Source of the DNA: Alistipes sp.
GTDB taxonomy: Bacteria; Bacteroidota; Bacteroidia; Bacteroidales; Rikenellaceae
Assembly: GCA_017630455.1 (NCBI GenBank)
Contig: JAGBVG010000071.1
Span: 1-64,000 of the forward strand
Direction of reading: 5' to 3'
Length of the DNA: 64,000 bases
Positions within the stretch are counted from its first letter, which is position 1; each line of letters starts with the position of its first letter. Made by a program: the position numbers and the translations under genes. Under the pieces are notes generated by a model, which was given only the letters and a program-made list of their open reading frames with translations, did no database searches and was not told the DNA's origin. This document shows, piece by piece, positions 1 to 12,614 of the stretch.

Positions 1-276
1 GCCTTTTATATAACTACTTTTAACTTTATTAATAGCAATCTTACTTAATAGTCCGCGGGCGACAAGTGCATCTACATCAGCCTTGACCGTTGGATGGCTA
101 ACAGCGAATCTGTTTTCGAGTTCTTTTATTGTAAAAGCCGTTTGAGGGTTATTGTTAATAATCGAAAGCATAGCTGCCTGCCTTTCATTAATACCTCCTA
201 ATCTCAAGAAGTCGGCGGTTTTGGCTTTTTGATCTATTTTCTTTTCTATATAGTCAAGTAAAATTACAATTGGAAT
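1..276 (-). pseudogene. winged-helix fragment, possibly C-terminal part of a Fic-family protein (5'-truncated, runs off left edge)
   Basis: An open frame of 92 codons enters from an in-frame TAG at 277-279 and runs off the window at position 1. It has no ATG before about residue 35. The readable peptide contains GGINERQ, then FTIKELENRF and SHPTVKADVDALVARGLLSK, which is a winged-helix DNA-binding pattern. This motif order (NERQ followed by a wHTH) is like the C-terminal extension of many Bacteroidota Fic proteins, but no Fido motif HxFx(D/E)GNGR is present upstream. I infer a decayed or recombined gene end next to the sulfonolipid operon. It could instead be a short regulator using a TTG start. 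Family assignment is tentative. Confidence 0.4.
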
Positions 277-299
277 CTATGAATATTTTCCTACCTTTG
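270..299 (+). promoter_or_regulatory. promoter of the sulfonolipid/Hdr operon
   Basis: TACCTTTG at 292-299 matches the Bacteroidota -7 box TAnnTTTG exactly. A TTG at 270-272 lies 19 bp upstream, the usual spacing for the -33 element. Transcription should begin near 305-307, about 55 nt before the first start codon at 362. Confidence 0.7.
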
Positions 300-306
300 C
301 ACGAAA

Positions 307-326
307 ATAGTAAAACGGTTTACTAT
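307..326. promoter_or_regulatory. palindromic operator candidate at the operon start
   Basis: Half-sites ATAGTAAA and TTTACTAT are perfect reverse complements separated by 4 nt. The palindrome begins within a few bases of the predicted transcription start, so a bound dimer would block initiation. The convergent MarR gene at 9761-10207 is the obvious candidate ligand-responsive repressor; a single ATAGTAA half-site also occurs at 10198-10204, at that gene's own start. The pairing of protein and site is inference. Confidence 0.5.
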
Positions 327-361
327 AAAAGATGTGACTAAAATCTAAACCTTTATAATAT

Positions 362-1438
362 ATGGAGTCATTTATGATTTCCGGTATCCAGCAGATCGGT
401 ACCGGTACTGTGGACTTCAGAAAGTCATGGAACTGGTACATTGAGATGTTCGGAATTGACGTGAAGATTCTGGAGGACGACACAGTAGCGGAGCGCATGC
501 TCCCATATACAGGCGGAAAGCCGCATCAGCGTCACGCCGGCATCGCAGTCAATCTTCAGGGCGGTGGAGGCTTCGAAATATGGCAGTACTCAAAACGTAA
601 GCCGGAGCCGTGTCCGTTTGCCATATCGGTTGGAGACCTCGGCATCTTTGCTGCAAAGCTCAAATGCCGTGATGTAGCGGCGTTCTATAATTGGGTTTCT
701 AATAAATGGCCAGACTGCACCACTCCCGAAACCCTTCCGGACGGTACACCATGCTTCTATATAAAGGACCTCTATGGCAACTGTTTCCAGATCGTAGAAA
801 GGAAAGATGTATTCATCGATCAGAACAAGTTCACTGGTGGAATGATCGGTGCTGTCATTGGCGTCACCGACATGGAGAGATCTATCAGATTCTATCGTGA
901 TGTACTTGGCTACGACCGAATAATCAGTGACACCACAGGAGCGTTCAGCAAGCATTTCTTCATGCCAGGTTCCGACAAGAACTGCCGCAGGGTCATCCTC
1001 GGCGCTCCGAAGCGCAAAGGCGCATTCGCAGAACTCTTCGGAGACTCGACGATAGAGCTTGTACAAGCTCTTGAATACACTCCACGTAGGATTTACGAAG
1101 GACGCTATTGGGGCGACCCCGGCTTTATCCAGGTATGCTTCGACGTGACAGGAATGGACAATATGAAGAAGTTCTGTGCAGAAAAAGGTCATCCTTTCAC
1201 AGTGGACAGCTGTCCTGACGGAGAGATCTTCGATATGGGAGACGCATCTGGACGCTTTGCATATATCGAGGATCCGGACGGAACCCTGGTTGAACTTGTA
1301 GAGACGAACAAGGTACCGGTAATCAAGAAACTGGGATGGTTCATCGACATGAAGAAGCGTAATCCGGAAAAGAATCTCCCTAAATTCCTTTTCAGAATGA
1401 TGGGACTTGTATCAAAAGAAACAATCAAAAATCAATAG
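362..1438 (+). CDS. tandem VOC (glyoxalase/dioxygenase superfamily) protein, unknown substrate
   Basis: 358 aa with two VOC-fold halves, roughly residues 6-150 and 160-315. The second half shows the typical GAVIGVTDMERSIRFYRDVLGY opening (first residues only quoted in part: VTDMERSIRFYRDVLGY) and closes with EDPDGTLVELVE; acidic residues in FEIWQY, STIELVQ and LVELVET are candidate metal ligands. VOC proteins include glyoxalase I, extradiol dioxygenases and 4-hydroxyphenylpyruvate dioxygenase, but nothing here fixes the reaction. It is the first gene of the operon and its stop is 2 nt before the SulA-like start, so a role linked to sulfonolipid chemistry or to the Hdr-like module is likely. 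The C-terminal 40 residues are basic and outside the fold. An alternative ATG lies at 374. Confidence 0.75.
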   Translation: MESFMISGIQQIGTGTVDFRKSWNWYIEMFGIDVKILEDDTVAERMLPYTGGKPHQRHAGIAVNLQGGGGFEIWQYSKRKPEPCPFAISVGDLGIFAAKLKCRDVAAFYNWVSNKWPDCTTPETLPDGTPCFYIKDLYGNCFQIVERKDVFIDQNKFTGGMIGAVIGVTDMERSIRFYRDVLGYDRIISDTTGAFSKHFFMPGSDKNCRRVILGAPKRKGAFAELFGDSTIELVQALEYTPRRIYEGRYWGDPGFIQVCFDVTGMDNMKKFCAEKGHPFTVDSCPDGEIFDMGDASGRFAYIEDPDGTLVELVETNKVPVIKKLGWFIDMKKRNPEKNLPKFLFRMMGLVSKETIKNQ

Positions 1439-1440
1439 AC

Positions 1441-2706
1441 ATGTTTACAGATATTTTTGACAGAATCAGAAAGTCAGCAGGTGGTCCTATCGGACAGTAC
1501 CGTGAAAAAGCTGAAGGTTATTTCGCATTCCCACGCCTTGAGGGCGAACTTGGTCCAAATATGAAATTTAACGGACAGGACGTTCTGTGCTGGAGCCTCA
1601 ACAACTATCTTGGTCTTGCAAACCATCCCGAGATCCGCAAGGCAGATGCAGAAGCCGCTGCGAAATGGGGCCTGGCATACCCTATGGGAAGCCGAATGAT
1701 GACAGGACAGACACATCTTCACGAAGAGCTCGAGCGCAGGCTTGCAGCATTCGAGAAGAAAGAGGCTGCCTTCGAGTTCAACTTCGGTTACCAGGGTATC
1801 GTCTCGACGATCGACGCACTGGTATGTCGTCATGACGTGATTGTCTATGATGCTGAAGACCATGCCTGCCTCCTTGACGGTATCCGTCTGCACGTCGGAA
1901 GCAAATATAAGTTCCGTCATAATGACATCAAGGACTGCGAAAGAGTGGTTGCAAAGGCATGTGAGGAAGCGGAGAAGAAGGGCGGCGGAGTCCTCCTCAT
2001 CACTGAAGGAGTATTCGGAATGACCGGAGCTCTCGGAATCCTTGACCAGATAGCAGCGCTCAAGAAGAAATACAAGTTCCGCATCATGATTGATGATGCC
2101 CACGGATTTGGTGTGATGGGCGAGCACGGCCGCGGTACATCCGAGCACTTCGGAGTTATGGATGAGATTGACATATACATCGGAGCATACGCAAAGTCAA
2201 TGGCCATAATCGGCGGTTTCGTAGCAGCCGACAAGGATATCATTGACTACCTTAAATACAATATGCGTTCGCAGATCTATGCGAAGTCACTTCCAATGCC
2301 TATCGTGGAAGGATGTCTCAAGCGACTCGATATCATCGACAGTCCTGAAGGTGATGCGCTCCGCGCGCAGCTCTGGAAGGTGACCAGACGCCTCCAGAAT
2401 GGATTCCGCGAACTTGGATTTGACATCGGCCCTGCTGAGGCATGCGTCACACCTGTTCTTGTGAAGGCGGGAGTGAATTCAGCAGCCAACATTGCAGTCG
2501 CGCTTCGCGAGGAATACCATATCTTCTGTTCTGTTGTGATCTATCCTGTGATTCCTCCGGGAATGGTAATCTTCCGTATCATCCCTACAGCTGCTCACAG
2601 CATGGATGATGTCGAAAGGACACTCGCTGCCTTCAAGGATATGAAGGAAAGACTTGACAGAGGAGAATTTGACAAGGAAATGCCTAATATGGCGCTCCTG
2701 AAATAA
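1441..2706 (+). CDS. sulA: cysteate acyl-ACP transferase (SulA/CapB), sulfonolipid biosynthesis
   Basis: 421 aa PLP-dependent alpha-oxoamine synthase, usually labelled serine palmitoyltransferase or glycine C-acetyltransferase. The PLP lysine is K252 in GAYAKSM, the aspartate motif IDDAHGFG lies at 217-224 and the His-containing DAEDHA at 137-142. K282 in SQIYAKSLP lies 30 residues after the PLP lysine. Published work on Alistipes finegoldii SulA placed the PLP lysine at 251 and reported Lys281, an alanine in true serine palmitoyltransferases, as the distinguishing residue; the same 30-residue spacing is seen here. The predicted reaction is cysteate + acyl-ACP giving 3-ketocapnine, CO2 and free ACP. 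The following SDR and the distal cysteate synthase in the same operon support this. The symbol follows the Alistipes name; it is unrelated to the SOS inhibitor SulA. Confidence 0.88.
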   Translation: MFTDIFDRIRKSAGGPIGQYREKAEGYFAFPRLEGELGPNMKFNGQDVLCWSLNNYLGLANHPEIRKADAEAAAKWGLAYPMGSRMMTGQTHLHEELERRLAAFEKKEAAFEFNFGYQGIVSTIDALVCRHDVIVYDAEDHACLLDGIRLHVGSKYKFRHNDIKDCERVVAKACEEAEKKGGGVLLITEGVFGMTGALGILDQIAALKKKYKFRIMIDDAHGFGVMGEHGRGTSEHFGVMDEIDIYIGAYAKSMAIIGGFVAADKDIIDYLKYNMRSQIYAKSLPMPIVEGCLKRLDIIDSPEGDALRAQLWKVTRRLQNGFRELGFDIGPAEACVTPVLVKAGVNSAANIAVALREEYHIFCSVVIYPVIPPGMVIFRIIPTAAHSMDDVERTLAAFKDMKERLDRGEFDKEMPNMALLK

Positions 2707-2709
2707 GCC

Positions 2710-3495
2710 ATGCAATCAGTTTGGATAACAGGAGCATCCTCCGGAATCGGTGAAGCATGTGCTTACCGTTATGCAGAAGAAGGGGCGAGACTGGCTCTTA
2801 CCTCTTCTTCTGCAGACCGTCTTGAAAAGGTTGCGGCCAAATGCCGTGAACTCGGGGCAGAAGGGGTGACTGTTTTCCCTTTCGACCTCACCTGCCCCGA
2901 CGGTATTGACAACCTCACCGACGACGTCTGGATTGCCCTCGGTGGCATTGACATAGTAATGCTCAATGCCGGCATCAGCCAAAGAACCAACGTCGAGGAT
3001 ACTTCAATGGAGATGGTGCGCAAGATAATGGAAATCAATTACTTCGCTCCAGTAGCTATTGCTAAACGCCTTCTGCCGAAAATGGCTGCCAGAGGCGGTG
3101 GAAAGATTGCTGTAACTACATCCATTGCCGGAAGATTCGGTTTTCCGCTCCGATGCGGATACAGCTCTTCAAAGTTCGCCTTGTACGGATTCTTCGAAAC
3201 CCTTCAGGCCGAGTACTACAGCAAGGGTATCAGAGTGACTATGGTATGTCCGGGTAGGGTGCAGACCAACATATCCAGATATGCTCTTGACAAGGGAGGA
3301 AAGCCACACGGAGTGATGGATCCCGGTCAGGCAAGCGGAATGACTGCAGGAGCTGCGGCACGCGTCATAACAAGAGCTGTAGCAAAGGAAAAGAAGGAAG
3401 TGCTTGTAGGAAGGAAAGAACTTCTTATGGTCTATATCAAACGATTCTTCCCTGGATTATGCGCCATTCTTGCCCGTAAAATCAAACCTATGTAG
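2710..3495 (+). CDS. short-chain dehydrogenase, probable 3-ketocapnine reductase (CapC-like)
   Basis: 261 aa classical SDR. Cofactor motif TGASSGIG at residues 7-14, NAG at 86-88, N110, S138 and the catalytic pair Y151/K155 in YSSSK are all present. The ATG is 3 nt after the SulA-like stop. A 3-keto reductase is the next step in sphingolipid-type synthesis, and an NAD(P)H-dependent dehydrocapnine reductase (CapC) has been described in the capnine pathway, so reduction of 3-ketocapnine to capnine is the best assignment. The C-terminus carries a basic, hydrophobic tail (VYIKRFFPGLCAILARKIKPM, about 20 residues) that could associate with the membrane, as in DHRS7/KDSR-like reductases. Substrate is inferred from context. 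Confidence 0.8.
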   Translation: MQSVWITGASSGIGEACAYRYAEEGARLALTSSSADRLEKVAAKCRELGAEGVTVFPFDLTCPDGIDNLTDDVWIALGGIDIVMLNAGISQRTNVEDTSMEMVRKIMEINYFAPVAIAKRLLPKMAARGGGKIAVTTSIAGRFGFPLRCGYSSSKFALYGFFETLQAEYYSKGIRVTMVCPGRVQTNISRYALDKGGKPHGVMDPGQASGMTAGAAARVITRAVAKEKKEVLVGRKELLMVYIKRFFPGLCAILARKIKPM

Positions 3496-3500
3496 CGGTT

Positions 3501-4196
3501 ATGGGAAAGTTGTACGATCTTTTGAGAGAAGACTACAGGATCAAGGAAGGTCTCAAGACCTGTATCAACTGTGGGACCTGCACGGCAATATGCCCTGCAG
3601 CTGAATTCTACAGGTACGACCCCCGTAGAATCGTAGATACTGTCCAAAGAGGCAACGATGAAGATATCGAGGCCCTGCTCAAGAGCGACACCATATGGTA
3701 CTGCGGAGAATGTCTCTCCTGCCTCACAAGATGTCCCCGCAGAAATGGTCCCGGACTGGTGATAATGGCATTGCGTGACCTTTCTGCAAGGCTCGGGTAT
3801 TTCGTCGAGTCGGAGAAAGGCCGCCAGCTCTATCCTCTCACAAAGATAATGACCGGAAACATCCTCAAATACGGCTATTGCATACACCCTGATACTTTCA
3901 GTTGGGAAGACCACGTGGAATCCGGCCCTGTCTGGAAATGGCATACTGAACATCTTGAAGACAGTTACGCAAGGCAGGGTGCCAATTTTCGCGGCTCAGG
4001 TCCCGGAATACTCCGCAAGATTCCTCAGGAATCTCTCGACGAGCTGAAGAAGATATTTGATGTCACCGGAGCAACAGAAAGGATGGAAACAGTGGAAAAA
4101 TTCTCCAGAGCCAAGGCAGAAGAGATGGGGATGTCGATGGAAGAGTACTTCCGTCACACGTTTGAACATTGTTCGGACAATCATTTCAACGATTGA
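3501..4196 (+). CDS. HdrC-like iron-sulfur subunit (first copy)
   Basis: 231 aa. Two [4Fe-4S] ferredoxin-type motifs of the HdrC kind: Cys 21, 24, 27, 31 (CINCGTCTAIC) and Cys 68, 71, 74, 78 (CGECLSCLTRC). The remaining 150 residues, ending in an acidic and His-rich tail, are longer than in small HdrC proteins. HdrC passes electrons between HdrA flavin/FeS centres and the HdrB active-site clusters. It begins 6 nt after the SDR stop and precedes HdrB, as in hdrCB pairs. Function in this operon is unknown; see the finding on the Hdr-like module. Confidence 0.85.
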   Translation: MGKLYDLLREDYRIKEGLKTCINCGTCTAICPAAEFYRYDPRRIVDTVQRGNDEDIEALLKSDTIWYCGECLSCLTRCPRRNGPGLVIMALRDLSARLGYFVESEKGRQLYPLTKIMTGNILKYGYCIHPDTFSWEDHVESGPVWKWHTEHLEDSYARQGANFRGSGPGILRKIPQESLDELKKIFDVTGATERMETVEKFSRAKAEEMGMSMEEYFRHTFEHCSDNHFND

Positions 4197-4216
4197 CAAG
4201 TTGTGAAACCTTAGTT

Positions 4217-5287
4217 ATGATATATCAAGGCAAACAGAAGATATGGAGTGATTATCAGAAGGAGATTCCTGATGATAACTGGTACTACGTACGCAGCTGC
4301 ATACGTCAGAACTTCTTTCCGGCATCGGAGAAGATGTTCATGGAAATATGCAGGAACGTTCTGGGCAAGGACATCTACGAAAATGAGCACCACACGACCT
4401 GCGGAGGCATCGCCTATCACTGCGACACGATCCCTCAGGAGACAGCAATGACCATAGTCGCAAGACAGTTTGCCCTGATGACCGAAGCAGGTTACGAAAA
4501 TTACGTCGCATCCTGCATCACATCATTCGGCAACTACACGGAGATTCTCGAGACCTGGAACGAATTCCCGGAACTTGAGGCCAGGATACGCGAACTGCTC
4601 TGGAAAGCCTGCAGGAAGGAATTCAAGAAGCCTAAGCATCTGGCGCATTCGAGCGACCTCATCTTCAAGTTCCGCAACGAGATAGCTAAAAAGGCTAAAT
4701 TCCACCTCGTAAACAAAGAAACCGGAGAGCCTCTGAAAGTAGTGGAGCACATCGGCTGCCACTACTCCAAGATGTTCCCGTCAAAAGGAGTCGGCGGAGC
4801 CGAATATCCATACGTACTGACTGGAATGGTGGAATCCTGGGGAGGAAACATCATCGACTACCCTGAGAGAAGACACTGCTGCGGCTACGGATTCCGCCAG
4901 TACCACGTAAAGGCGAATAGAGGCTACTCCATCTCGAACACGCACAAGAAATTCGAGTCCATGGCCCCTTACAAGCCGGACATGATCATAACCAACTGCC
5001 CGGGATGCCCGTATTTCCTTGACAGATGGCAGTATGTGATTGCAGAAATGGAAGGCAAGACCTACGGCCAGAACGGATTCGGAATACCGGTATTCACATA
5101 TGAAGAAGTAGCCGGACTGGTATTGGGATATGACCCGTGGGATCTCGGCCTTCAGCTGCATCAGACAGCAGTGGAGCCTCTTCTGGACAAGATCGGAATA
5201 GAATACGATCCTGAACAGAAGTATAAAGGTCTGGACAGGAAGGACATAATGAGACCGGAACTTCCGAAAGTAATGAAATGCTTCTAA
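4217..5287 (+). CDS. HdrB-like CCG-domain subunit
   Basis: 356 aa from the ATG at 4217; a TTG 48 nt upstream would add residues inside the preceding gene and is unlikely. The second half contains a canonical CCG (DUF224) module: HIGCHYSK, then RHCCGYGF, then NCPGCPYFLDRW. The first half has a more divergent module with TTCGGIAYHCD and ASCITSFGNY. In heterodisulfide reductase HdrB these cysteines hold two non-cubane [4Fe-4S] clusters that cleave a disulfide. Both motif sets look usable, although the first departs from consensus. The pairing with HdrC immediately upstream and an HdrA-like flavoprotein downstream supports a complex. Confidence 0.82.
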   Translation: MIYQGKQKIWSDYQKEIPDDNWYYVRSCIRQNFFPASEKMFMEICRNVLGKDIYENEHHTTCGGIAYHCDTIPQETAMTIVARQFALMTEAGYENYVASCITSFGNYTEILETWNEFPELEARIRELLWKACRKEFKKPKHLAHSSDLIFKFRNEIAKKAKFHLVNKETGEPLKVVEHIGCHYSKMFPSKGVGGAEYPYVLTGMVESWGGNIIDYPERRHCCGYGFRQYHVKANRGYSISNTHKKFESMAPYKPDMIITNCPGCPYFLDRWQYVIAEMEGKTYGQNGFGIPVFTYEEVAGLVLGYDPWDLGLQLHQTAVEPLLDKIGIEYDPEQKYKGLDRKDIMRPELPKVMKCF

Positions 5288-5299
5288 AACCACCGGGAC

Positions 5300-6316
5300 A
5301 TGAAGGAGATAATAGCTATAATAGGAGGCGGAATAGCCGGAATGGAAGCTGCAGCCCAGCTTCTGAAGCTTGGTCACACCCCTATCATAATCGAGAAAGG
5401 CGACCGCCTTGGCGGCCATGTGGCACGCTGGCACAGGCTTTTCCCGGACCTCACACCTGCCGGCGAACTCATCGACAGGCTGACCGAAGCCTGCAAGGAA
5501 GCCAACATATTCCTCAACACTGAGGTTTCCATTGTAAACCGTCTCAGAGACGGCTACAACATCATCCTTTCCAACGGCATTACGATAAGCACCCGACACA
5601 TCCTCATGACGACCGGATTCAAGATGTTCGAAGCGTCGAAGAAGGAAGAGTACGGATATGGAATATACAACAATGTCGTCACCAATTCAGACCTTGAGAA
5701 TTGGTTCAACGGCAACAAGGACGAGCGCATAGACAGTTCGTCAATGAAGACTATAGGATTCGTGCACTGTGTGGGATCGCGAGACGAAAAGGCCGGCAAC
5801 GGCCAATGCTCGAAAGTCTGCTGCATCACTGCCATCAAGCAGGCGATAGAGCTGAAGGAAATGTATCCAGACGCGCAGATATACTGCTTCTACATGGACC
5901 TCCGCCTGTTCGGAAAGAAGTTTGAAGACTTCTACACCAAGGCTCAGCGCGACCACGGGATACATTTCATCAGAGGCAGAGTTTCAGAGGTGAGCGAAAA
6001 CATAAACGGCAAACTGATCGTCAAGGCAGAGGACACGCTGCTCGGCAAGCCAGTCAAGGTTACCCTGGACCTTCTTGTGCTCATGTCCGGAATGGCATGC
6101 AATCCTGAAAGCACAAGATTAGCATCCATGATTGCCCTCCCTACAGATTCGGACAGATTCCTCAAAAGCGAGGACAACATAATCCACATCACCTCCTCGC
6201 CGAAGAAGGGAGTGTTCTACGCCGGAGCCTGCACAGGTCCCAAGACCGTGCCTGAAACCCTTGCAGAGGCCCGTTCGGCAGCCTTGGATATCCATTTCAA
6301 GATACAGGAGGCATAA
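5300..6316 (+). CDS. HdrA/QmoA-like FAD protein
   Basis: 338 aa. The N-terminal dinucleotide-binding motif IGGGIAG lies at residues 8-14. The HdrA hallmark FVHCVGSRD is at 154-162, followed by C170, C174 and C175, which with C157 can bind a [4Fe-4S] cluster. The protein lacks the extra ferredoxin and insertion domains of large bifurcating HdrA proteins, so it is closer in size to QmoA or to the short HdrA of sulfur-oxidising sHdr complexes. It would take electrons from or deliver them to the neighbouring HdrC/HdrB proteins. It starts 12 nt after HdrB. Confidence 0.82.
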   Translation: MKEIIAIIGGGIAGMEAAAQLLKLGHTPIIIEKGDRLGGHVARWHRLFPDLTPAGELIDRLTEACKEANIFLNTEVSIVNRLRDGYNIILSNGITISTRHILMTTGFKMFEASKKEEYGYGIYNNVVTNSDLENWFNGNKDERIDSSSMKTIGFVHCVGSRDEKAGNGQCSKVCCITAIKQAIELKEMYPDAQIYCFYMDLRLFGKKFEDFYTKAQRDHGIHFIRGRVSEVSENINGKLIVKAEDTLLGKPVKVTLDLLVLMSGMACNPESTRLASMIALPTDSDRFLKSEDNIIHITSSPKKGVFYAGACTGPKTVPETLAEARSAALDIHFKIQEA

Positions 6317-6319
6317 GAC

Positions 6320-6658
6320 ATGAACGGATTCGGCTTCAGACTTTCACCAAGTTCCGCCATCAATCTGGACAAGATTGACAGGACATTGTTCGACGAGCTG
6401 TGCAGAATAGAGCCCGACGCTTTGCGCTGCATGTCCTGCGGATCGTGTACTGCCACATGCACATCGTCCGGTCCCAGCGGAATGAGTGTCAGGAAGATGC
6501 TGCTGAATCTTCAGAGAGGCAAGGTGGATGAAACCGTCAGGATGATATCCGGATGCATGCTCTGCGGAAAATGCACGATGGTATGTCCAAGAGGCATAAA
6601 GACCCGCCGTCTCATACTGACAGTCAGCAGGTTATATAAAAAGGAGGAGAAGGTATGA
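6320..6658 (+). CDS. HdrC-like iron-sulfur subunit (second copy)
   Basis: 112 aa with two ferredoxin motifs at Cys 37, 40, 43, 47 (CMSCGSCTATC) and Cys 79, 82, 85, 89 (CMLCGKCTMVC). The stop overlaps the start of the next gene by 4 nt (ATGA), indicating translational coupling to the membrane subunit. It is shorter than the first HdrC-like protein in the operon and probably serves the HdrE::HdrD fusion downstream. Confidence 0.85.
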   Translation: MNGFGFRLSPSSAINLDKIDRTLFDELCRIEPDALRCMSCGSCTATCTSSGPSGMSVRKMLLNLQRGKVDETVRMISGCMLCGKCTMVCPRGIKTRRLILTVSRLYKKEEKV

Positions 6659-8478
6659 TGAGGGAGATATATCCATCCGGCTTCAACAGTTTCGTGACGC
6701 CTTTCATGCTGGGAATGCTTTTCGTTCTCGGCTGGTGTCTCGTCGGTGCATTCAGGGTACTGCTTGAACTGCCGAAAGAAGACAGAAAGAAGCTCGTATT
6801 ATCCTTCATCAACCCTAAGATAATGGCGAAGAACATCAGGGACTGGTTCCTTGACTGCCTCATCCACGTAAAGCTCTGGAAACGCAACAAGCTTCTGGGA
6901 TACATGCATTCAAGCATAGCCTTCGGATGGTTCATGATAATCGTCATAGGCCACATAGAAGTATTCCTCTACACCCCTGAAAGGATCCACCGTCTGTGGT
7001 ACCCGATCTTCTTCAGATATTTCGTTGCAGTTTCAGACAGCACGATGGAGGGAGCGCTTCTTTTCTTCCTGATGGACCTATTTCTGCTTATCATACTGAT
7101 CGGCATATTACTGGCCATAATCAAAAGAGTGCACTCGCGTATGTTCGGAATGCGACGCACGACACGCGGCAGCCTTACAGACCTGATAGGACTGTATGCC
7201 CTGTGGTGCATATTCCCGTTAAGACTTCTTGCAGAAGGATTCACTGCCGACATTAGCGGAGGATCATTTCTCACAAAGTCATTGAATAATCTCCTGCACC
7301 TGTTCTACAGTGACCCCACTAATGCATTACCAGTCTGGTGGGCATATTCCATTTCATTGGGAGTATTCATGTGCGTACTTCCGTTCAGCAGATATATGCA
7401 CATCCCTGCGGAAATCCTTCTCATTCCGATGAGAAACGCCGGTATTCCGATAAGGTATTCCCGCAAAGGCATATCAAGACTGCAGGTCCACTCATGCCCA
7501 GGCTGCGGAGTATGCATAGATGCATGCCCTCTCAGTGCTGTGCCGGCCAACGTAAGAGACACCACAGTCTACCTCAACAGACAGCTGAAACGCAACAACA
7601 GAAGACGCATAGAAGAAATCAGCGACAAATGCCTCCTGTGCGGAAAATGCTCGGCAGTGTGCCCGGTGGGAGTGGAAGGAGACAAGCTCAGGATAGCACA
7701 TCGAGCTACAAGGGAATATGGAATATCAGCTGATTATTCGATGATAGACCAAAGCGGATTCGTGAAGGACAAAGGCAGGCGTGTGCTGTATTTCGCAGGA
7801 TGCATGACGCACCTGACACCTTCTATCAAGATATCCCTCACATCCATTCTTGAAACAGTCGGAGAGAATTATTCCCTTATGGATGAAGACGGAGGAATAT
7901 GCTGCGGAAGGCCGATGCTGACAGCCGGCAGGAAGGATGCCGCCATGCATATGATCGAGAAGAACACAGAAATCATCAGATCTTCTGGAGCATCGGTGCT
8001 ACTGCTGAGCTGCCCAATCTGCTACAGGATATTCAAGCAGGACTATAAACTCGAAGGAATTGAGATCCTTCACCATAGCGAATACATTGACAGACTTATC
8101 TCTGAAAAGAAACTGGATATATCTGGAACAGGCCTCAGGTACGCCTACCACGATCCTTGTGAACTCGGAAGGGGATGCGGGATATATGAAGAGCCGAGAA
8201 ATGTGGTGTCTGCTGCAGGAGTACTCGTGGAAGGAGCAAAAAAGGGGAAAGAGAGCATATGCTGCGGAGGCAGCCTCGGCAGCCTTACTCTCAGTGACGA
8301 ACAAAGGAAACGATTGGCAGAGAATGCACTCGGCAATCTCACGGCAGACTCGCCTGATGCAGTGGTGACAGCCTGCCCTCTATGCAAGAACACTTTCAAC
8401 AGATATGCAGCCGTGCCGGTTCTTGACATTGCGGAAATAGTGGCACGGGCCTCAGGTAGAAATAACATAAAACAATAA
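6655..8478 (+). CDS. membrane HdrE::HdrD fusion (cytochrome b-like plus FeS/CCG domains)
   Basis: 607 aa in one chain. Residues 10-260 contain about five hydrophobic membrane segments with histidines (for example H85, H100, H249) as in NarI/HdrE cytochrome b subunits that react with quinones. Then come two [4Fe-4S] motifs at Cys 281, 284, 287, 291 and Cys 326, 329, 332, 336. Two CCG modules follow: AGCMTH (C383), ICCGRP (C416, C417), SCPIC (C453, C456); and DPCELG, ICCGGS, ACPLCKNTF. The C-terminal two thirds is thus HdrD (HdrC + HdrB fused) or DsrK/HmeD-like. The fusion would link a quinone pool to a soluble thiol/disulfide or sulfur substrate at the cytoplasmic face. Confidence 0.82.
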   Translation: MMREIYPSGFNSFVTPFMLGMLFVLGWCLVGAFRVLLELPKEDRKKLVLSFINPKIMAKNIRDWFLDCLIHVKLWKRNKLLGYMHSSIAFGWFMIIVIGHIEVFLYTPERIHRLWYPIFFRYFVAVSDSTMEGALLFFLMDLFLLIILIGILLAIIKRVHSRMFGMRRTTRGSLTDLIGLYALWCIFPLRLLAEGFTADISGGSFLTKSLNNLLHLFYSDPTNALPVWWAYSISLGVFMCVLPFSRYMHIPAEILLIPMRNAGIPIRYSRKGISRLQVHSCPGCGVCIDACPLSAVPANVRDTTVYLNRQLKRNNRRRIEEISDKCLLCGKCSAVCPVGVEGDKLRIAHRATREYGISADYSMIDQSGFVKDKGRRVLYFAGCMTHLTPSIKISLTSILETVGENYSLMDEDGGICCGRPMLTAGRKDAAMHMIEKNTEIIRSSGASVLLLSCPICYRIFKQDYKLEGIEILHHSEYIDRLISEKKLDISGTGLRYAYHDPCELGRGCGIYEEPRNVVSAAGVLVEGAKKGKESICCGGSLGSLTLSDEQRKRLAENALGNLTADSPDAVVTACPLCKNTFNRYAAVPVLDIAEIVARASGRNNIKQ

Positions 8479-8482
8479 TACT

Positions 8483-9769
8483 ATGGACTTTACACCTATA
8501 AAGTATTCATTGGTCTGCTGTGCAGACGGACATAGATTCGAAGACACTGGATGGTCTCTTGCAGACCCTCAATGCGGATGTCCAAGCCTTGTCAGGGCAG
8601 AATATGAAAAGAAGCAATATGAGCCTCAAGAGGACCTTGACGGCTTCTACAGATACGCCAACTGGCTTCCGGTCCAGAGGACACTTAAAGGTTCAGGAAC
8701 CCCTGTAACCTACAGAAGCACCGCTCTCGCAGCTGAACTGGGCCTTGAAAACCTCTACATCACATTCTCAGGATGGTGGCCCAAGATCGGCGCCAAGATG
8801 ACGACCTGCTCGTTCAAGGAGACAGAAGCATATTCAGTATGCGGTAGACTTGGTGCGGACAACAGGAAGATTCTTGTTGTGGCCTCAGCAGGAAATACAG
8901 CCCGAGCGTTCGCAAAGGTATGTTCTGAGAACAATATACCGCTTCTCATATCCATTCCGGCAGACAACATCGGCGCAATGTGGTTCAGCAAACCGCTCAA
9001 CGACTGCGTCAAGATCATCGCATCACCTGAAGGATCGGACTACTACGACGCCATCGCACTTTCCGACAAAGTCTGCACAGACCCAGCATTCATGGCCGAA
9101 GGCGGCGCAAAGAACGTAGCACGTCGCGACGGCATGGGCACAACCCTTCTCTCTGCCGTTGAAGCAATTGGCAGGATTCCTGATGCCTATTTTCAGGCTA
9201 TCGGAAGCGGCACTGGAGCCATTGCCGTGTGGGAAAACAACCTCAGACTCATTGAAGACGGAAGATGGGGATCACACAAGATGCGCCTCTACCCATCACA
9301 GAATGATCCGTTTACAATAATGTATGATTCTTGGAAACGGCACTCGCGTCAACTGGTGGACATGACACCTGATCAGGCCCGCAAGGCAGCATCCGAGATT
9401 GACGCAAAGGTCCTTTCAAACAGAAAGCCGCCTTACTCATTGGCAGGAGGCCTTTTCGATGCAATGGAAGACGCCGGCGGAGATATGTTCAAGGTCAGCA
9501 ACACAGAACTCAGGTACTGGAAGAAGAGATTCGCGGAACTTGAAGGAATAGACATCCACGATGCTTCGGCTGTAGCAGTTGCTTCTCTTGCTCAGGCAGT
9601 CCGCGAAGGCTCAGTCAAGAATGAGGAGACAATAATGCTGAACATCACGGGTGGAGGAGAAGAACTCGCAAAATCAGAGAATGAGGTCTTCTATGCGAAA
9701 CCTCATCTCGTTCTTGATCCGGCACTTCCACCGGAAGATATAATCAGCGCTGTAAAAGATTTATTCTAG
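8483..9769 (+). CDS. archaeal-type cysteate synthase (PLP, threonine synthase fold)
   Basis: 428 aa fold-type II PLP enzyme. SFKETEA gives the PLP lysine at K112; SAGNTARAF at 135-143 binds the substrate carboxylate and phosphate. The N-terminus carries CCADGH and CGCP, the paired cysteines seen in threonine-synthase-like proteins. Automatic labels would read 'threonine synthase', but the length and motif style match the methanoarchaeal cysteate synthase that makes L-cysteate from O-phospho-L-serine and sulfite. Homologues of that enzyme have been reported in Bacteroidota as an alternative to CapA in capnine synthesis. It ends the operon that begins with the SulA-like enzyme, whose substrate is cysteate. 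No homoserine-pathway neighbours are present. Confidence 0.83.
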   Translation: MDFTPIKYSLVCCADGHRFEDTGWSLADPQCGCPSLVRAEYEKKQYEPQEDLDGFYRYANWLPVQRTLKGSGTPVTYRSTALAAELGLENLYITFSGWWPKIGAKMTTCSFKETEAYSVCGRLGADNRKILVVASAGNTARAFAKVCSENNIPLLISIPADNIGAMWFSKPLNDCVKIIASPEGSDYYDAIALSDKVCTDPAFMAEGGAKNVARRDGMGTTLLSAVEAIGRIPDAYFQAIGSGTGAIAVWENNLRLIEDGRWGSHKMRLYPSQNDPFTIMYDSWKRHSRQLVDMTPDQARKAASEIDAKVLSNRKPPYSLAGGLFDAMEDAGGDMFKVSNTELRYWKKRFAELEGIDIHDASAVAVASLAQAVREGSVKNEETIMLNITGGGEELAKSENEVFYAKPHLVLDPALPPEDIISAVKDLF

Positions 9770-10207
9770 CCCATTCCCGGCAGAAGTCATGTTACGGTTG
9801 AGCTTGTGAAGAGTCACAAGGAAAGAACGGAGTTCCTCTTCACTGATACCTACGAGCATCTCATCGAGAATTGAAACACCTTTCTGCTTGGCACCATGCT
9901 TCAGTATCTCGGCTTTCTCTGTGAGCATAAGCGTATTGGATCTCCGGTCCTGACGGTTCTGCTCACGAACTACAAAGCCCTTGCGCTCAAGAGCATCAAC
10001 CAGTTTGGTCACGGAATTCTTATCCTTCTGCATCTGGTCAGCAAGCTGCTGCTGAGACATGGAACCTTGATTCCAAAGAAGATCAATGAGAATAAACTGC
10101 TCTGGAGTAAGAGGGACCTCCATCTGTCTGAGCTTAGCAGCAACGAACTGCTTGAGTTTGCAGCCTGTGAGATTCAATTCGACAGCGATTTCCTTGGATA
10201 GTAACAT
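9761..10207 (-). CDS. MarR-family transcriptional regulator
   Basis: 148 aa. Winged-helix core around residues 47-110: SMSQQQLADQMQKDKNSVTKLVDALERKGFV, with the wing DRRSNTLMLTEKA (quoted in parts: SMSQQQLADQ, DRRSNTLML). The gene is convergent with the cysteate synthase and overlaps its 3' end by 9 nt. MarR dimers bind palindromes of about 20 bp and respond to small phenolic, lipid or redox signals. The 20-bp palindrome at 307-326 on the sulfonolipid operon start is the likely target; regulation of both is inference. Its own -7 box is at 10231-10238. Confidence 0.88.
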   Translation of the reverse strand: MLLSKEIAVELNLTGCKLKQFVAAKLRQMEVPLTPEQFILIDLLWNQGSMSQQQLADQMQKDKNSVTKLVDALERKGFVVREQNRQDRRSNTLMLTEKAEILKHGAKQKGVSILDEMLVGISEEELRSFLVTLHKLNRNMTSAGNGLE

Positions 10208-10230
10208 TTGTATACAGTATTAGGTTTTTA

Positions 10231-10238
10231 CAAAATTA
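10231..10238 (-). promoter_or_regulatory. -7 box of the MarR gene
   Basis: TAATTTTG on the minus strand matches TAnnTTTG. The short palindrome ATACxGTAT at 10212-10220 and the ATAGTAA half-site at 10198-10204 lie between the start site and the coding start, where autoregulation could occur. Confidence 0.45.
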
Positions 10239-10406
10239 AAAAAATATTATAAGATATGAAAAACAAGTTTTCATTATTTTTGCGGGTAGATTCAACGACC
10301 AAGTGCAAAATTAAGAAAAATGGTTAAAGAAAAGTTTAGTAGGCGAAGAAAAATTGAGTTTTAACCTCGGATGGAAAATTTGATGTTTTTTGGCCACGCG
10401 AAGAAG

Positions 10407-11215
10407 TGTTAGGCTGACTCCATAAAATTTTGAGGAATTGACCCTAAAAACGTTTTGGCTGACGGGGTCAATTATTGATAAAAATTATTTTCTATTTCCC
10501 ATAATCTTGCGAACACTTTCACCCGTAAGTTCTATTTGATGAGCTGTGTGAACAATACGATCCAAGATGGCATCTGCAACGGTAGGCTCACCGATTGCCT
10601 CGTACCAACTTGTCACTGGGAGTTGAGAGGTTATTGTAATCGATTTTTGATTGTGTCTATCCTCGATTATTTCTAAAAGTATAGCTCTTTCTTTTTGGTC
10701 TACTGGAACCAAGAATAAATCGTCAAGAATAAGCAACTGGCATCGTTCAATCTTCTTTAGTTCCGCCTCAATAGTACCTTTTGCTTTGGCAAGTTTCAGA
10801 TGCCCCATAAGTTTTGCAGAACTTGCATACATTGTCTTAATGCCTGCACGACATGCTTGATATCCCAAGGCTGTTGCAATGAAACTCTTACCCGTGCCAG
10901 ATGATCCCGTCAGGAATAGATTCTGTCCATTACGCACAAAGTCTACCGTGGCAAGGCGCTCCATTTGGTTGCGATCAAGATTTCTTCCCAAAGTATAGTC
11001 TATATCCTCGGGGAAGGCCTTGTATCTAAATCCCGCTTGTCGTATGAGCCTTTCGATGGTGGCATTGATTCTATAATCCCACTCGTTCGACAAGAGCCAG
11101 GCCACGAAGTTGTCTGGCGTCATCGACTCAGCAAAAGTACAGGAAAGGCTCTCTCTAAAAGCTGAAGCCATTCCGTGCAACTTCATTCGTTGCATCAGTT
11201 CGAGAGTATTTGCAA
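10407..11215 (-). mobile_element. IS21-family remnant (istB plus one end; istA lost)
   Basis: Beyond the istB stop, the sequence 10407-10470 has IS21-like terminal features. It starts TGTTAGGCTGACTCC; GGCTGAC is repeated at 10412 and 10457; an inverted pair AATTGACCC/GGGTCAATT lies at 10436-10444 and 10463-10471. IS21 ends normally carry several copies of the transposase-binding repeat. On the other side the istB reading frame begins right after tandem stops near 11216 and no istA (about 1.5 kb) is found. The element cannot transpose by itself. Confidence 0.6.
10485..11195 (-). CDS. istB: IstB-like ATP-binding protein of an IS21-family element
   Basis: 236 aa AAA+ protein. Walker A GSSGTGKS, Walker B LLILDDLF, and the C-terminal ADAILDRIVH arginine-containing segment are all intact. 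The reading frame is open for seven more codons upstream (IANTLEL before the first Met), ending at a stop, which suggests only the extreme N-terminus or its start codon is missing. IstB is the helper ATPase of IS21 transposition and needs the DDE transposase IstA, which is absent here. It is therefore an orphan relic, possibly still translated. Confidence 0.85.
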   Translation of the reverse strand: MQRMKLHGMASAFRESLSCTFAESMTPDNFVAWLLSNEWDYRINATIERLIRQAGFRYKAFPEDIDYTLGRNLDRNQMERLATVDFVRNGQNLFLTGSSGTGKSFIATALGYQACRAGIKTMYASSAKLMGHLKLAKAKGTIEAELKKIERCQLLILDDLFLVPVDQKERAILLEIIEDRHNQKSITITSQLPVTSWYEAIGEPTVADAILDRIVHTAHQIELTGESVRKIMGNRK

Positions 11216-11366
11216 TTTATTAAATGATCTACAATGCAAACTCGGTTCATTTATAGAGCGTATTGGAACAATTCAAGTTCTACATCACGGAGCATATAAA
11301 CAGTGTATTTGTAGAGACCATTTATCATCGTTGATTCTCCGCAATGGAAAGTTATTAGTTGTTTGA
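11216..11366 (+). pseudogene. 3' fragment of an unidentified gene next to the IS21 remnant
   Basis: About 48 codons are open on the plus strand, ending LRNGKLLVV then a stop, and followed 13 nt later by a perfect stem-loop (11380-11409). The 5' part is missing because the frame enters the IS21 remnant. The peptide (KLGSFIERIGTIQVL, CICRDHLSSLILRNG) was not recognised. The terminator placed right behind it suggests the end of a once functional gene disrupted by the element. The rest of the 11196-11672 gap shows only AT-rich sequence and the promoter at 11639. Confidence 0.35.
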
Positions 11367-11379
11367 TAAAAGAATACAA

Positions 11380-11409
11380 AATACCCACGAGTAAAAACTC
11401 GTGGGTATT
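11380..11409 (+). terminator. perfect 13-bp stem-loop
   Basis: AATACCCACGAGT and ACTCGTGGGTATT flank a 4-nt loop. There is no long T run, but the stem is perfect and directly follows the gene fragment at 11216-11366. Confidence 0.65.
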
Positions 11410-11638
11410 ATGTATTTATTAGCCTATAAAATCAGAAAAATTATGTATCTTTACACTCGAATTAGAGCTCCAAACGATTTATCGTTGATTGTCATTATTT
11501 ATTAATGTTTATCAAAATTTTTCGCCCTATTTCAGCCCGAAATTCACAATGCCTTGATTATCAATGTAGTTTATTTACTGCATAGGAAAGTAAACTTGGA
11601 AAAGCAGAGAAAAACTGTAAAAGTCAGAAGGGAAACAT

Positions 11639-11646
11639 TAACTTTG
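11639..11646 (+). promoter_or_regulatory. -7 box for the PD-(D/E)XK gene
   Basis: TAACTTTG is an exact TAnnTTTG match located 26 nt before the start codon at 11673. No clear -33 TTG was seen at the expected spacing. Confidence 0.5.
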
Positions 11647-11672
11647 TGATTAAATAATAGCATAATCCGAAT

Positions 11673-12614
11673 ATGAAAAGTACGTGTAAGTATGGAGAGT
11701 CCTATCCTGGTGATACGAAATTTGTGGCTGAGTGCAGATTATTGCAGTCGATATATAGGAGCGAAATAGGAGAAAACATCCGTCCGTATGTAAGTAAGGA
11801 GAAGGTATATCTTCTCGGCAACTACATTGAGCGGGGCAAAGAGAGCGGAGCAAACTTTTTAGCGGAGTATATTTTCGATTATGCAAAATATAGAGTGGCT
11901 AATAAAAAGCCTTACGAGACAATAGATTCGGATAGGCTATTTAACAACCTATTATCGAGCCAGCCAATGGCTTTTAACCTCTTTTGTCCGTTGCGCAAGA
12001 TGGTGAAAGAGAGCCCCGAAGCTGCGATGTTGGCTCTTCGCTCTGCATTGCCGATGTACCCGATAGCCCGAATTATTGATATAGACCTCGAATTTATACC
12101 CAATAATTACAAAGAACTCACAGGCGACAAGAGCGCAATGGATGCTATCATACGCTTTGAGGATTACGATGGCAAGGAGTGTTTCATAGCCATTGAGACC
12201 AAGTATTCCGAAAATCTCGGAGCTAATGAAGCATCTGATAAAACGAGAGCTATTGAGATCATTAAGCAATTAAAATGTTTCCATCCAGATATTGAGGAGA
12301 GAATTGCAAATTCGAAGATAAAGTTAACACAGATATATCGTAATTTCCTGCTCAGTGAGACCTATGGCATAGATGTTTCCGCAGAGTCCTACTCGCTTAT
12401 TATAGCACCCAAGCAACATCCATCAACAGGCCGAGAGCTTCATTCTTTGGTCAATGAGCTTAACGAGGAGTATAGACACAAGGTGCAATCGCTCTCGTTA
12501 GAGGATTTTGTCGAAAGATTAATTGCGAACTGTCCTCCTGAGTATATCAATATATATAATAGGTTTTACAATCGCTATTTGGACTTCAGGAAGATAGAGT
12601 CAGCAAACGGCTAA
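11673..12614 (+). CDS. PD-(D/E)XK nuclease-like protein (PGN_0703-type putative restriction endonuclease)
   Basis: 313 aa. The core reads AMDAII (D157) then, after a short hairpin, FIAIETKYSE with E175 and K177: the spacing and hydrophobic strands fit a PD-(D/E)XK nuclease site. The overall sequence resembles the family labelled PGN_0703-like putative restriction endonucleases of Porphyromonadaceae and relatives. No methyltransferase, specificity subunit or second defence gene is adjacent, so it is an orphan. It has its own promoter and lies in the AT-rich accessory strip between the IS21 remnant and the GNAT gene. DNA target and role (defence or repair) are unknown. Confidence 0.65.
   Translation: MKSTCKYGESYPGDTKFVAECRLLQSIYRSEIGENIRPYVSKEKVYLLGNYIERGKESGANFLAEYIFDYAKYRVANKKPYETIDSDRLFNNLLSSQPMAFNLFCPLRKMVKESPEAAMLALRSALPMYPIARIIDIDLEFIPNNYKELTGDKSAMDAIIRFEDYDGKECFIAIETKYSENLGANEASDKTRAIEIIKQLKCFHPDIEERIANSKIKLTQIYRNFLLSETYGIDVSAESYSLIIAPKQHPSTGRELHSLVNELNEEYRHKVQSLSLEDFVERLIANCPPEYINIYNRFYNRYLDFRKIESANG

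Follow-up and report, generated by a model that had tools for sequence, protein, structure and literature searches.

A heterodisulfide-reductase-like gene cassette beside cysteate synthase in sulfonolipid operons of Bacteroidales

Introduction

A 64,000-nucleotide stretch of Alistipes sp. DNA (GenBank assembly GCA_017630455.1, contig JAGBVG010000071.1, positions 1 to 64,000; the window in the following) begins with a nine-gene operon in which five heterodisulfide-reductase-like (Hdr) genes stand among genes for the synthesis of sulfonolipid (capnine). The last gene encodes cysteate synthase (CysS), an enzyme that needs sulfite. Described Hdr systems with which the five genes can be compared are the sHdr systems of sulfur oxidisers, HdrABC and HdrDE of methanogens, and QmoABC. 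As defined in two papers (PMC11582611, PMC6067878), sHdr type I has the synteny shdrC1B1AHC2B2 together with lbpA and type II has shdrC1B1AHB3 with etfAB; the lipoate carrier LbpA has two conserved cysteines (PMC6067878). For H. denitrificans, PMC12423496 and PMC11582611 describe release of sulfite by sHdr and propose YeiH as a sulfite exporter; they trace the name of the YeiH family to a transporter for sulfite or sulfate from cysteate breakdown. The capnine pathway (CapA/Cys, CapB/CFAT/SulA, CapC/KCR) is described from Chryseobacterium gleum and Alistipes finegoldii. According to PMC11211663, the kcr genes there are not adjacent to cfat and Cys, and the verified 3-ketocapnine reductases (KCRs) are very divergent.

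Here we analyze the five-gene module and its recurrence. The conclusion that it is tied to cysteate supply is well supported. Our preferred explanation, to which we give a probability of about one half, is that the module is related to sHdr, works without LbpA, is probably linked to quinone, and provides the sulfite from which cysteate is made. Among the matches listed from the open-licence literature, no paper tying Hdr to sulfonolipid was found, and the papers naming both cysteate synthase and heterodisulfide reductase concern, by title, methane-cycling archaea.

Comparison with described systems

As an earlier note on this DNA had stated, five Hdr-type genes lie between a CapB/SDR pair and CysS. 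They encode HdrC1, HdrB, HdrA, HdrC2 and an HdrE::HdrD fusion (HdrED), and the set is called Hdr5 below. All nine open reading frames of the operon were confirmed on one strand, with intergenic gaps of 2, 3, 5, 20, 12, 3, -4 and 4 nt, i.e., from -4 to 20 nt.

The likeness to sHdr in gene order that the note had seen is borne out, and it extends to HdrA. Residues 5-330 of the window protein align end to end (E 2e-57) with residues 4-335 of 6TJR, which we take to be sHdrA of Hyphomicrobium. Methanogen HdrA aligns only from about residue 94 on, and the window protein is of the short type without the methanogen N-terminal part. Type I sHdr, known from Hyphomicrobium and other sulfur oxidisers, is also alike in the order C1-B1-A-...-C2-B2-like, in having two CCG proteins and in its proposed product, sulfite. 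However, the window operon lacks sHdrH (no gene lies between HdrA and HdrC2), LbpA and lipoate-assembly genes, its last HdrB is replaced by the membrane::HdrD fusion, and the module sits among biosynthetic genes (no search aimed at Sox genes was made). Type II shares a fused HdrC2/HdrB2-like (HdrD-type) polypeptide, whereas the window keeps a separate HdrC2, has a membrane part in the fusion, and contains neither sHdrH nor, among the genes of 362-9769, etfAB beside a shdrB3. By the published definitions the module is neither type I nor type II, although its mode of action may resemble that of sHdr.

Methanogen HdrABC/HdrDE has the same subunit types, including an HdrD that carries two CCG sites and is paired with a membrane subunit, but its HdrA has about 650 aa instead of 338, and the N-terminal CCG site of HdrB is degenerate in the window. 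The window proteins score far below the curated cut-offs of the methanogen NCBIfam models (HdrA 184 of 1400 bits, HdrB 130 of 450, HdrC 80 of 350), for which reason Hdr-like is the right wording. QmoABC is alike in its HdrA-like flavoprotein and membrane subunit, but the window has one HdrA-like protein, not two, the operon has no aprBA, and the qmoC model gives 46.4 bits against a cut-off of 300. On the lipid side, CapA and CapB are clearly homologous to the described enzymes and the SDR takes the CapC position; the described kcr genes lie apart from cfat and Cys, whereas the genes of the window are clustered and joined by Hdr. CysS scores 460.9 bits with TIGR03844 (cut-off 324.9). CapB matches 7u7h (548 bits, deposited as 7-keto-8-aminopelargonate synthetase-like) and 28eh (532 bits, cysteate-C-fatty acyltransferase) far better than serine palmitoyltransferase (233 bits), which identifies it as cysteate fatty acyltransferase. 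The SDR was assigned to family level (PF00106) and is a putative KCR.

A plasmid collection searched for sHdr references yielded one informative operon, on a Picosynechococcus plasmid (L171:9242-14982; L, G, C, f and g numbers are our handles for loci, genomes, contigs, families and genera). It has the order HdrC1-B-A-C2-B2, with 40% identity in HdrB, followed by a sulfide:quinone reductase-like gene with a weak match (83 bits, cut-off 525), and no lipoate protein was among its listed features. This combination points toward sulfur oxidation.

The metal sites of the window proteins are well conserved. In alignments of 71 sequences per subunit (67 for HdrB, 70 for HdrA), the expected Fe-S ligands of all five Hdr proteins are present in at least 99% of sequences. 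At that level HdrC1 and HdrC2 each retain two ferredoxin motifs, HdrA retains C157, C170, C174 and C175, and HdrB retains the five cysteines of its C-terminal CCG site. HdrED keeps two ferredoxin motifs, two complete CCG sites and the histidines H71, H85 and H249, and a hydropathy count gives five hydrophobic segments in its N-terminal part. CCG sites were called by the usual motif rules.

Recurrence of the module with cysteate synthase

A scan of the named genomes with the window CapB confirmed 231 relatives, and the locus counts given here refer to the best 80 of these 231, in which L092 and L095 represent one metagenome-assembled genome. All five hdr genes adjoin CapB in 30 of the 80 loci, always in the order C1-B-A-C2-ED, and CysS follows directly in 29 of the 30; in L164 a PALP enzyme is found instead. 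Recurrence of this gene order ahead of CysS in 29 of 80 loci exceeds what chance would give. A linkage confined to this genome, which would have undermined the earlier note, is not what we see: the same operon is present in many assemblies, and a one-genome artefact was rejected on that ground. CysS without Hdr genes occurs in 21 of the 80 loci, and in 17 of these a YeiH-family gene is within reach. Among the four without one, the sequence stops within CysS or shortly behind it in L092, L094 and L128, but not in L103. No CysS is near in the other 29 loci, of which L096 breaks off within HdrC1.

The linkage also appears in a sample of 295 genomes of the order. Two genomes of family f9 (G157, G371) carry Hdr5 directly before CysS, with no CapB nearby among the matches listed. 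In G190, G230 and G333 the Hdr genes have CapB, SDR, VOC and PALP genes around them, CapB and PALP stand beside them in G257, CapB alone, without CysS, in G289 (L051), and VOC accompanies HdrC1-C2-ED in G268 and G365. Genomes with linkage to Hdr number 2 of 31 for CysS (0.16 expected), 5 of 82 for CapB (0.44) and 5 of 41 for VOC (0.22), where the expectation takes placement to be uniform (17 kb in 3.2 Mb) and leaves relatedness aside; several linkages were read by eye from coordinates. No such link was seen in the remaining Hdr genomes of the sample, and further cases may be concealed by contig breaks. Within the window's own family (150 genomes), the module was seen within about 5 kb of CysS only in G089, G117 and this genome. 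Four loci of family f2 (L055, L056, L057, L058) have VOC-HdrC1-HdrC2-HdrED with no HdrB or HdrA nearby, split over two contigs in L057 and L058; this looks like a reduced module.

In most sampled Bacteroidales genomes that have it the module is solitary, as is a second copy in this genome (L009:8525-13517, same gene order). Solitary modules would suit a complex for detoxification, or a redox valve for thiols and sulfide in general, that shares the operon through common regulation alone. We regard this as improbable, as Hdr genomes are nearly nested within CapB genomes, and clustering of 64 stretches, some of them picked for known linkage (41 contain HdrED and the rest are loci of CapB or CysS), gave CapB, SDR, VOC, CysS and PALP as the only non-Hdr families recurring in more than five.

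Co-occurrence across genomes

The earlier note had proposed a search for co-occurrence of Hdr with CapB and CysS, and an association was found. In the window's family, where the genes are mostly unlinked, 96 genomes have both CysS and HdrB, 31 CysS only, 3 Hdr only and 20 neither (p 2e-8); the CysS count takes in two contig-end fragments. The corresponding numbers in genus g20, which was picked after seeing the data, are 8, 3, 0 and 12 (p 3e-4). At the level of the order, CapB is present in 83 of 89 Hdr genomes, compared with 206 of 295 genomes overall (odds ratio 9.3, p 1e-9); the 89 were judged from long HdrED matches, some in two pieces. Since related genomes are not independent, all these p values are too small.

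The near-universal presence of CapB in Hdr genomes would also be explained if Hdr did not supply sulfite but acted as a redox enzyme on the lipid or an intermediate linked to VOC. The VOC gene adjoining HdrC1-HdrC2-HdrED without CysS in f2 genomes (L055, L056) and the CapB-Hdr pair without CysS in G289 point the same way. On the other hand, Hdr5-CysS stands apart from CapB and VOC in f9, among the matches listed, VOC is out of reach in 3 of the 30 Hdr5 loci, and the partner with which the block is swapped is a YeiH-family transporter. To our knowledge, the known steps of the capnine pathway require no such redox step. We therefore consider a role on the lipid unlikely, if somewhat less so than a redox valve.

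Alternation with a YeiH-family transporter

Searches of 50 named genomes comprised 22 with the operon including the Hdr cassette, 17 with the operon without it, and 11 others. HdrB is present in exactly one copy in all 22 cassette genomes and elsewhere in the genome in 3 of the 17 cassette-less ones. The Hdr block behaves as a cassette, with relatives having the operon without this block. After CysS, most cassette-less operons have a YeiH-family gene, whose product scores 171 bits with PF03601 and 81 bits with TIGR00698, below the cut-off of 233. An orthologue of it (at least 70% identity) occurs in 16 of 17 genomes whose operon lacks the cassette but in only 3 of 22 that have it there (Fisher p 4e-7). 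With Hdr scored anywhere in the genome (n = 44), the transporter is found in 13 of 15 genomes without Hdr and 6 of 29 with Hdr (p 5e-5). At least 11 changes of cassette state are counted on the CapB tree. On the CysS tree, operons of the window clade carry either window-type CysS and Hdr or a distant CysS lineage and YeiH, which indicates that the exchanged unit is mostly Hdr5-CysS versus CysS-YeiH; L093, with window-type CysS, YeiH and no Hdr, is an exception.

This alternation beside CysS is as expected of a sulfite supplier. A YeiH protein that only exports sulfite should accompany Hdr, yet it alternates with it, which suggests that the YeiH-family protein imports sulfite in cassette-less operons. 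Matches to PF01507 (PAPS reductase/CysD) above the cut-off were found in three of the 22 cassette genomes (two matches in G458, one in G446 and a marginal 25-bit match in G450) and in none of the 17 cassette-less genomes, i.e., 36 of the 39 genomes with the operon have no match to this family above cut-off. Because PAPS reductase is missing from nearly all genomes of both groups, sulfite must come from elsewhere.

In one Hdr5-CysS locus, a SulP-family permease (L032:11876-13651) overlaps the end of CysS. It scores 401.6 bits with TIGR00815 (cut-off 380.5), and its best model is a C4-dicarboxylate transporter (520 bits, under the cut-off of 614). We counted it as support for sulfite supply, although the models do not fix its substrate.

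Proposed function and its weighing

The recurrent Hdr5-CysS block, the co-occurrence in the family and the alternation with YeiH bear out the tie between module and CysS that the earlier note had drawn. That the product of Hdr5 is sulfite appears probable to us; oxidation as the direction, with menaquinone as acceptor, we hold to be an evenly balanced proposition. In such a scheme for a membrane-bound complex, persulfide or thiol sulfur would bind at CCG sites, those of HdrB together with the complete pair in HdrED, and be oxidised to sulfite. Electrons would pass from HdrC1 to the FAD of HdrA, HdrC2, the ferredoxin centres of HdrED, a haem within the membrane portion of HdrED, and finally menaquinone. 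CysS would then condense sulfite with O-phosphoserine, which opens the route to capnine/sulfonolipid. If menaquinone takes up the electrons, conversion of sulfide or sulfane sulfur to sulfite is near thermoneutral, and consumption of sulfite by CysS would pull it.

Sulfite might instead be supplied reductively, by cleavage of an S-SO3 bond (thiosulfate, S-sulfocysteine) to thiol and sulfite with electrons from menaquinol or another donor. This is the main rival. It accounts equally for the CysS linkage, the YeiH alternation and the lack of PAPS reductase, HdrED has complete disulfide-type CCG sites, and the reaction is closer to classical heterodisulfide reduction. Menaquinol at about -74 mV, however, is too weak to reduce thiosulfate at about -400 mV unaided by membrane energy, and among the nine genes there is no low-potential partner (hydrogenase, formate dehydrogenase, EtfAB). 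With oxidation near thermoneutral, we prefer the oxidative direction and consider reductive supply unlikely, though the least unlikely of the alternatives.

Several observations weigh against an sHdr-like sulfite supplier. Concerning the enzyme, the N-terminal CCG site of HdrB has only three cysteines left, and the nine operon genes include no sHdrH, EtfAB, TusA, DsrE, rhodanese or LbpA. GCV_H is present in 49 of 53 genomes, with second matches all weak or fragments, and no LbpA was recognised: 12 GcvH-like proteins were read, each of them from an Hdr genome, and in none does the matched core contain more than one cysteine. HdrED matches no cytochrome-b family model in Pfam or NCBIfam; its HdrE label therefore rests on position, the hydrophobic segments and the invariant histidines, and binding of a b-type haem and a quinone is putative. 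Concerning distribution, the association of Hdr with CysS is weak in the order (32 of 89, odds ratio 1.75, p 0.048), CysS at E 1e-40 is missing from 57 of the 89 Hdr genomes, and 31 of 127 CysS-positive genomes of the window's family have no HdrB match. HdrB is also absent from 14 of the 17 cassette-less operon genomes, so that Hdr is not essential for sulfonolipid.

The alternation with YeiH has its own exceptions. Hdr and YeiH occur together in 6 of the 25 Hdr genomes among the 39 operon genomes, and the operons of L124, L132, L134 and L144 hold both. Of 7 supported independent pairs for cassette and YeiH, 5 change in opposite directions and 0 or 1 in the same direction (p 0.0625-0.219), and those for Hdr anywhere and YeiH (n = 5) give a median p of 0.25. 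In the window's own family, Hdr shows no alternation with PF03601 (p 0.63; within the same genus, p 0.31); PF03601 is broad there and matches 117 of 150 genomes at widely differing scores.

Origin of the operon in this genome

The first 10 kb of the window differ from the rest in tetranucleotide composition (distance 0.363, versus 0.113-0.183 for tiles that begin at or beyond 10 kb). These later tiles are similar to the other contigs of the genome and 1-10 kb is not, and on this basis the contig as a plain contaminant was rejected, transfer of the whole operon being likelier. Locus L091 (Alistipes sp. RGIG9547) has window positions 296-10252 in common at 92% DNA identity (blastn), and the right end is its contig end. 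The L091 operon is at 0.421 from its own flank, which in turn is at 0.185 from the remainder of the window. Operon and flank agree in L097, L098, L101, L104, L107 and L124 (0.13-0.19) and less so in L105 and L129 (0.34, 0.24). The genome has second copies of CysS (C55), CapB and the Hdr module (both C10). Taken together, foreign composition, the L091 pattern and these second copies make it likely that the whole operon was acquired horizontally; a chimeric assembly is the less likely reading. The contamination rating of 7%, with the second copies and the foreign composition, might also suggest that the entire neighbourhood is a product of chance, chimera or contamination. This we consider very improbable, since the operon recurs in 29 other loci from many assemblies and L091 carries it beside an Alistipes-like flank.

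Other features of the operon and its surroundings

The features are compiled in Table 1. The promoter motif given there was read by eye against the Bacteroidales consensus and is putative. An Rfam search of positions 1-12000 gave zero matches. The first gene, which the earlier note had counted without naming, encodes a VOC protein in which E72, E232 and E311 are invariant in 34 aligned sequences. Its 63 homologues across the loci recur beside CapB and Hdr in several families, and a PDB search gave no match below E 0.04. Relatives of the MarR regulator adjoin CapB or Hdr in other families. Adjoining the foreign block is what we take to be an IS21-type istB-like ATPase gene (10485-11195), an assignment made without family search; no istA was noticed among the neighbouring open reading frames.

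Table 1. Features of the operon region in the window
Feature	Position	Strand	Basis
VOC protein, two-domain (glyoxalase/dioxygenase superfamily)	362-1438	+	PF00903; two-domain from length and alignment
CapB, cysteate fatty acyltransferase (SulA-type)	1441-2706	+	28eh, 7u7h matches
SDR, candidate 3-ketocapnine reductase (CapC)	2710-3495	+	PF00106, operon position
HdrC1, two [4Fe-4S] motifs	3501-4196	+	family models, alignment
HdrB, complete C-terminal CCG site, N-terminal site down to three cysteines	4217-5287	+	
Short HdrA flavoprotein, 338 aa	5300-6316	+	6TJR alignment
HdrC2, two [4Fe-4S] motifs	6320-6658	+	family models, alignment
HdrE::HdrD fusion (HdrED), membrane N-terminal part, two [4Fe-4S] motifs, two complete CCG sites	6655-8478	+	
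Cysteate synthase (CysS, CapA)	8483-9769	+	TIGR03844
MarR-family regulator, convergent to operon	9761-10207	-	PF01047
Bacteroidales-type promoter motif, ahead of first gene	270-299	+	TTG 270-272, 19 nt, TAccTTTG 292-299
Block common to window and L091, probably horizontally acquired	296-10252	.	blastn 92%, tetranucleotide composition

Where CysS is absent, a threonine-synthase-like PALP enzyme adjoins CapB (L164:11276-12475, L054:5939-7198, L048, L052, L053, L119 and others), and in L164 it occupies the CysS position of the Hdr operon. These enzymes have 21-25% identity to CysS, and the six that were scanned score 104-127 bits with TIGR03844 (cut-off 325). Judged from sequence and position, the PALP enzyme is a candidate second cysteate synthase. 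In the order, 128 of 206 CapB genomes lack CysS at E 1e-40. According to PMC12927429, L. euxinus produces capnine lipids and its CapA match has only 32% identity, which would fit such a second enzyme.

Implications

Sulfonolipids of gut bacteria have been linked to inflammation (PMC11211663). CysS needs sulfite, and 36 of 39 operon genomes lack a PAPS-reductase family match above cut-off; for the question of where these gut lipids get their sulfite, the Hdr operon and its cassette-less YeiH sister operons provide two testable gene sets. Tentatively, and at slightly less than even odds, we propose that anaerobic gut Bacteroidales have a third, lipoate-carrier-free and menaquinone-linked sHdr-like class that turns reduced sulfur into sulfite for the synthesis of a sulfonate lipid and is evolutionarily interchangeable with a sulfite transporter. 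If true, Hdr-like sulfur oxidation would gain a role in biosynthesis and a design that does without lipoate, and anaerobic gut Bacteroidales would be oxidising sulfur for biosynthesis, not for energy.

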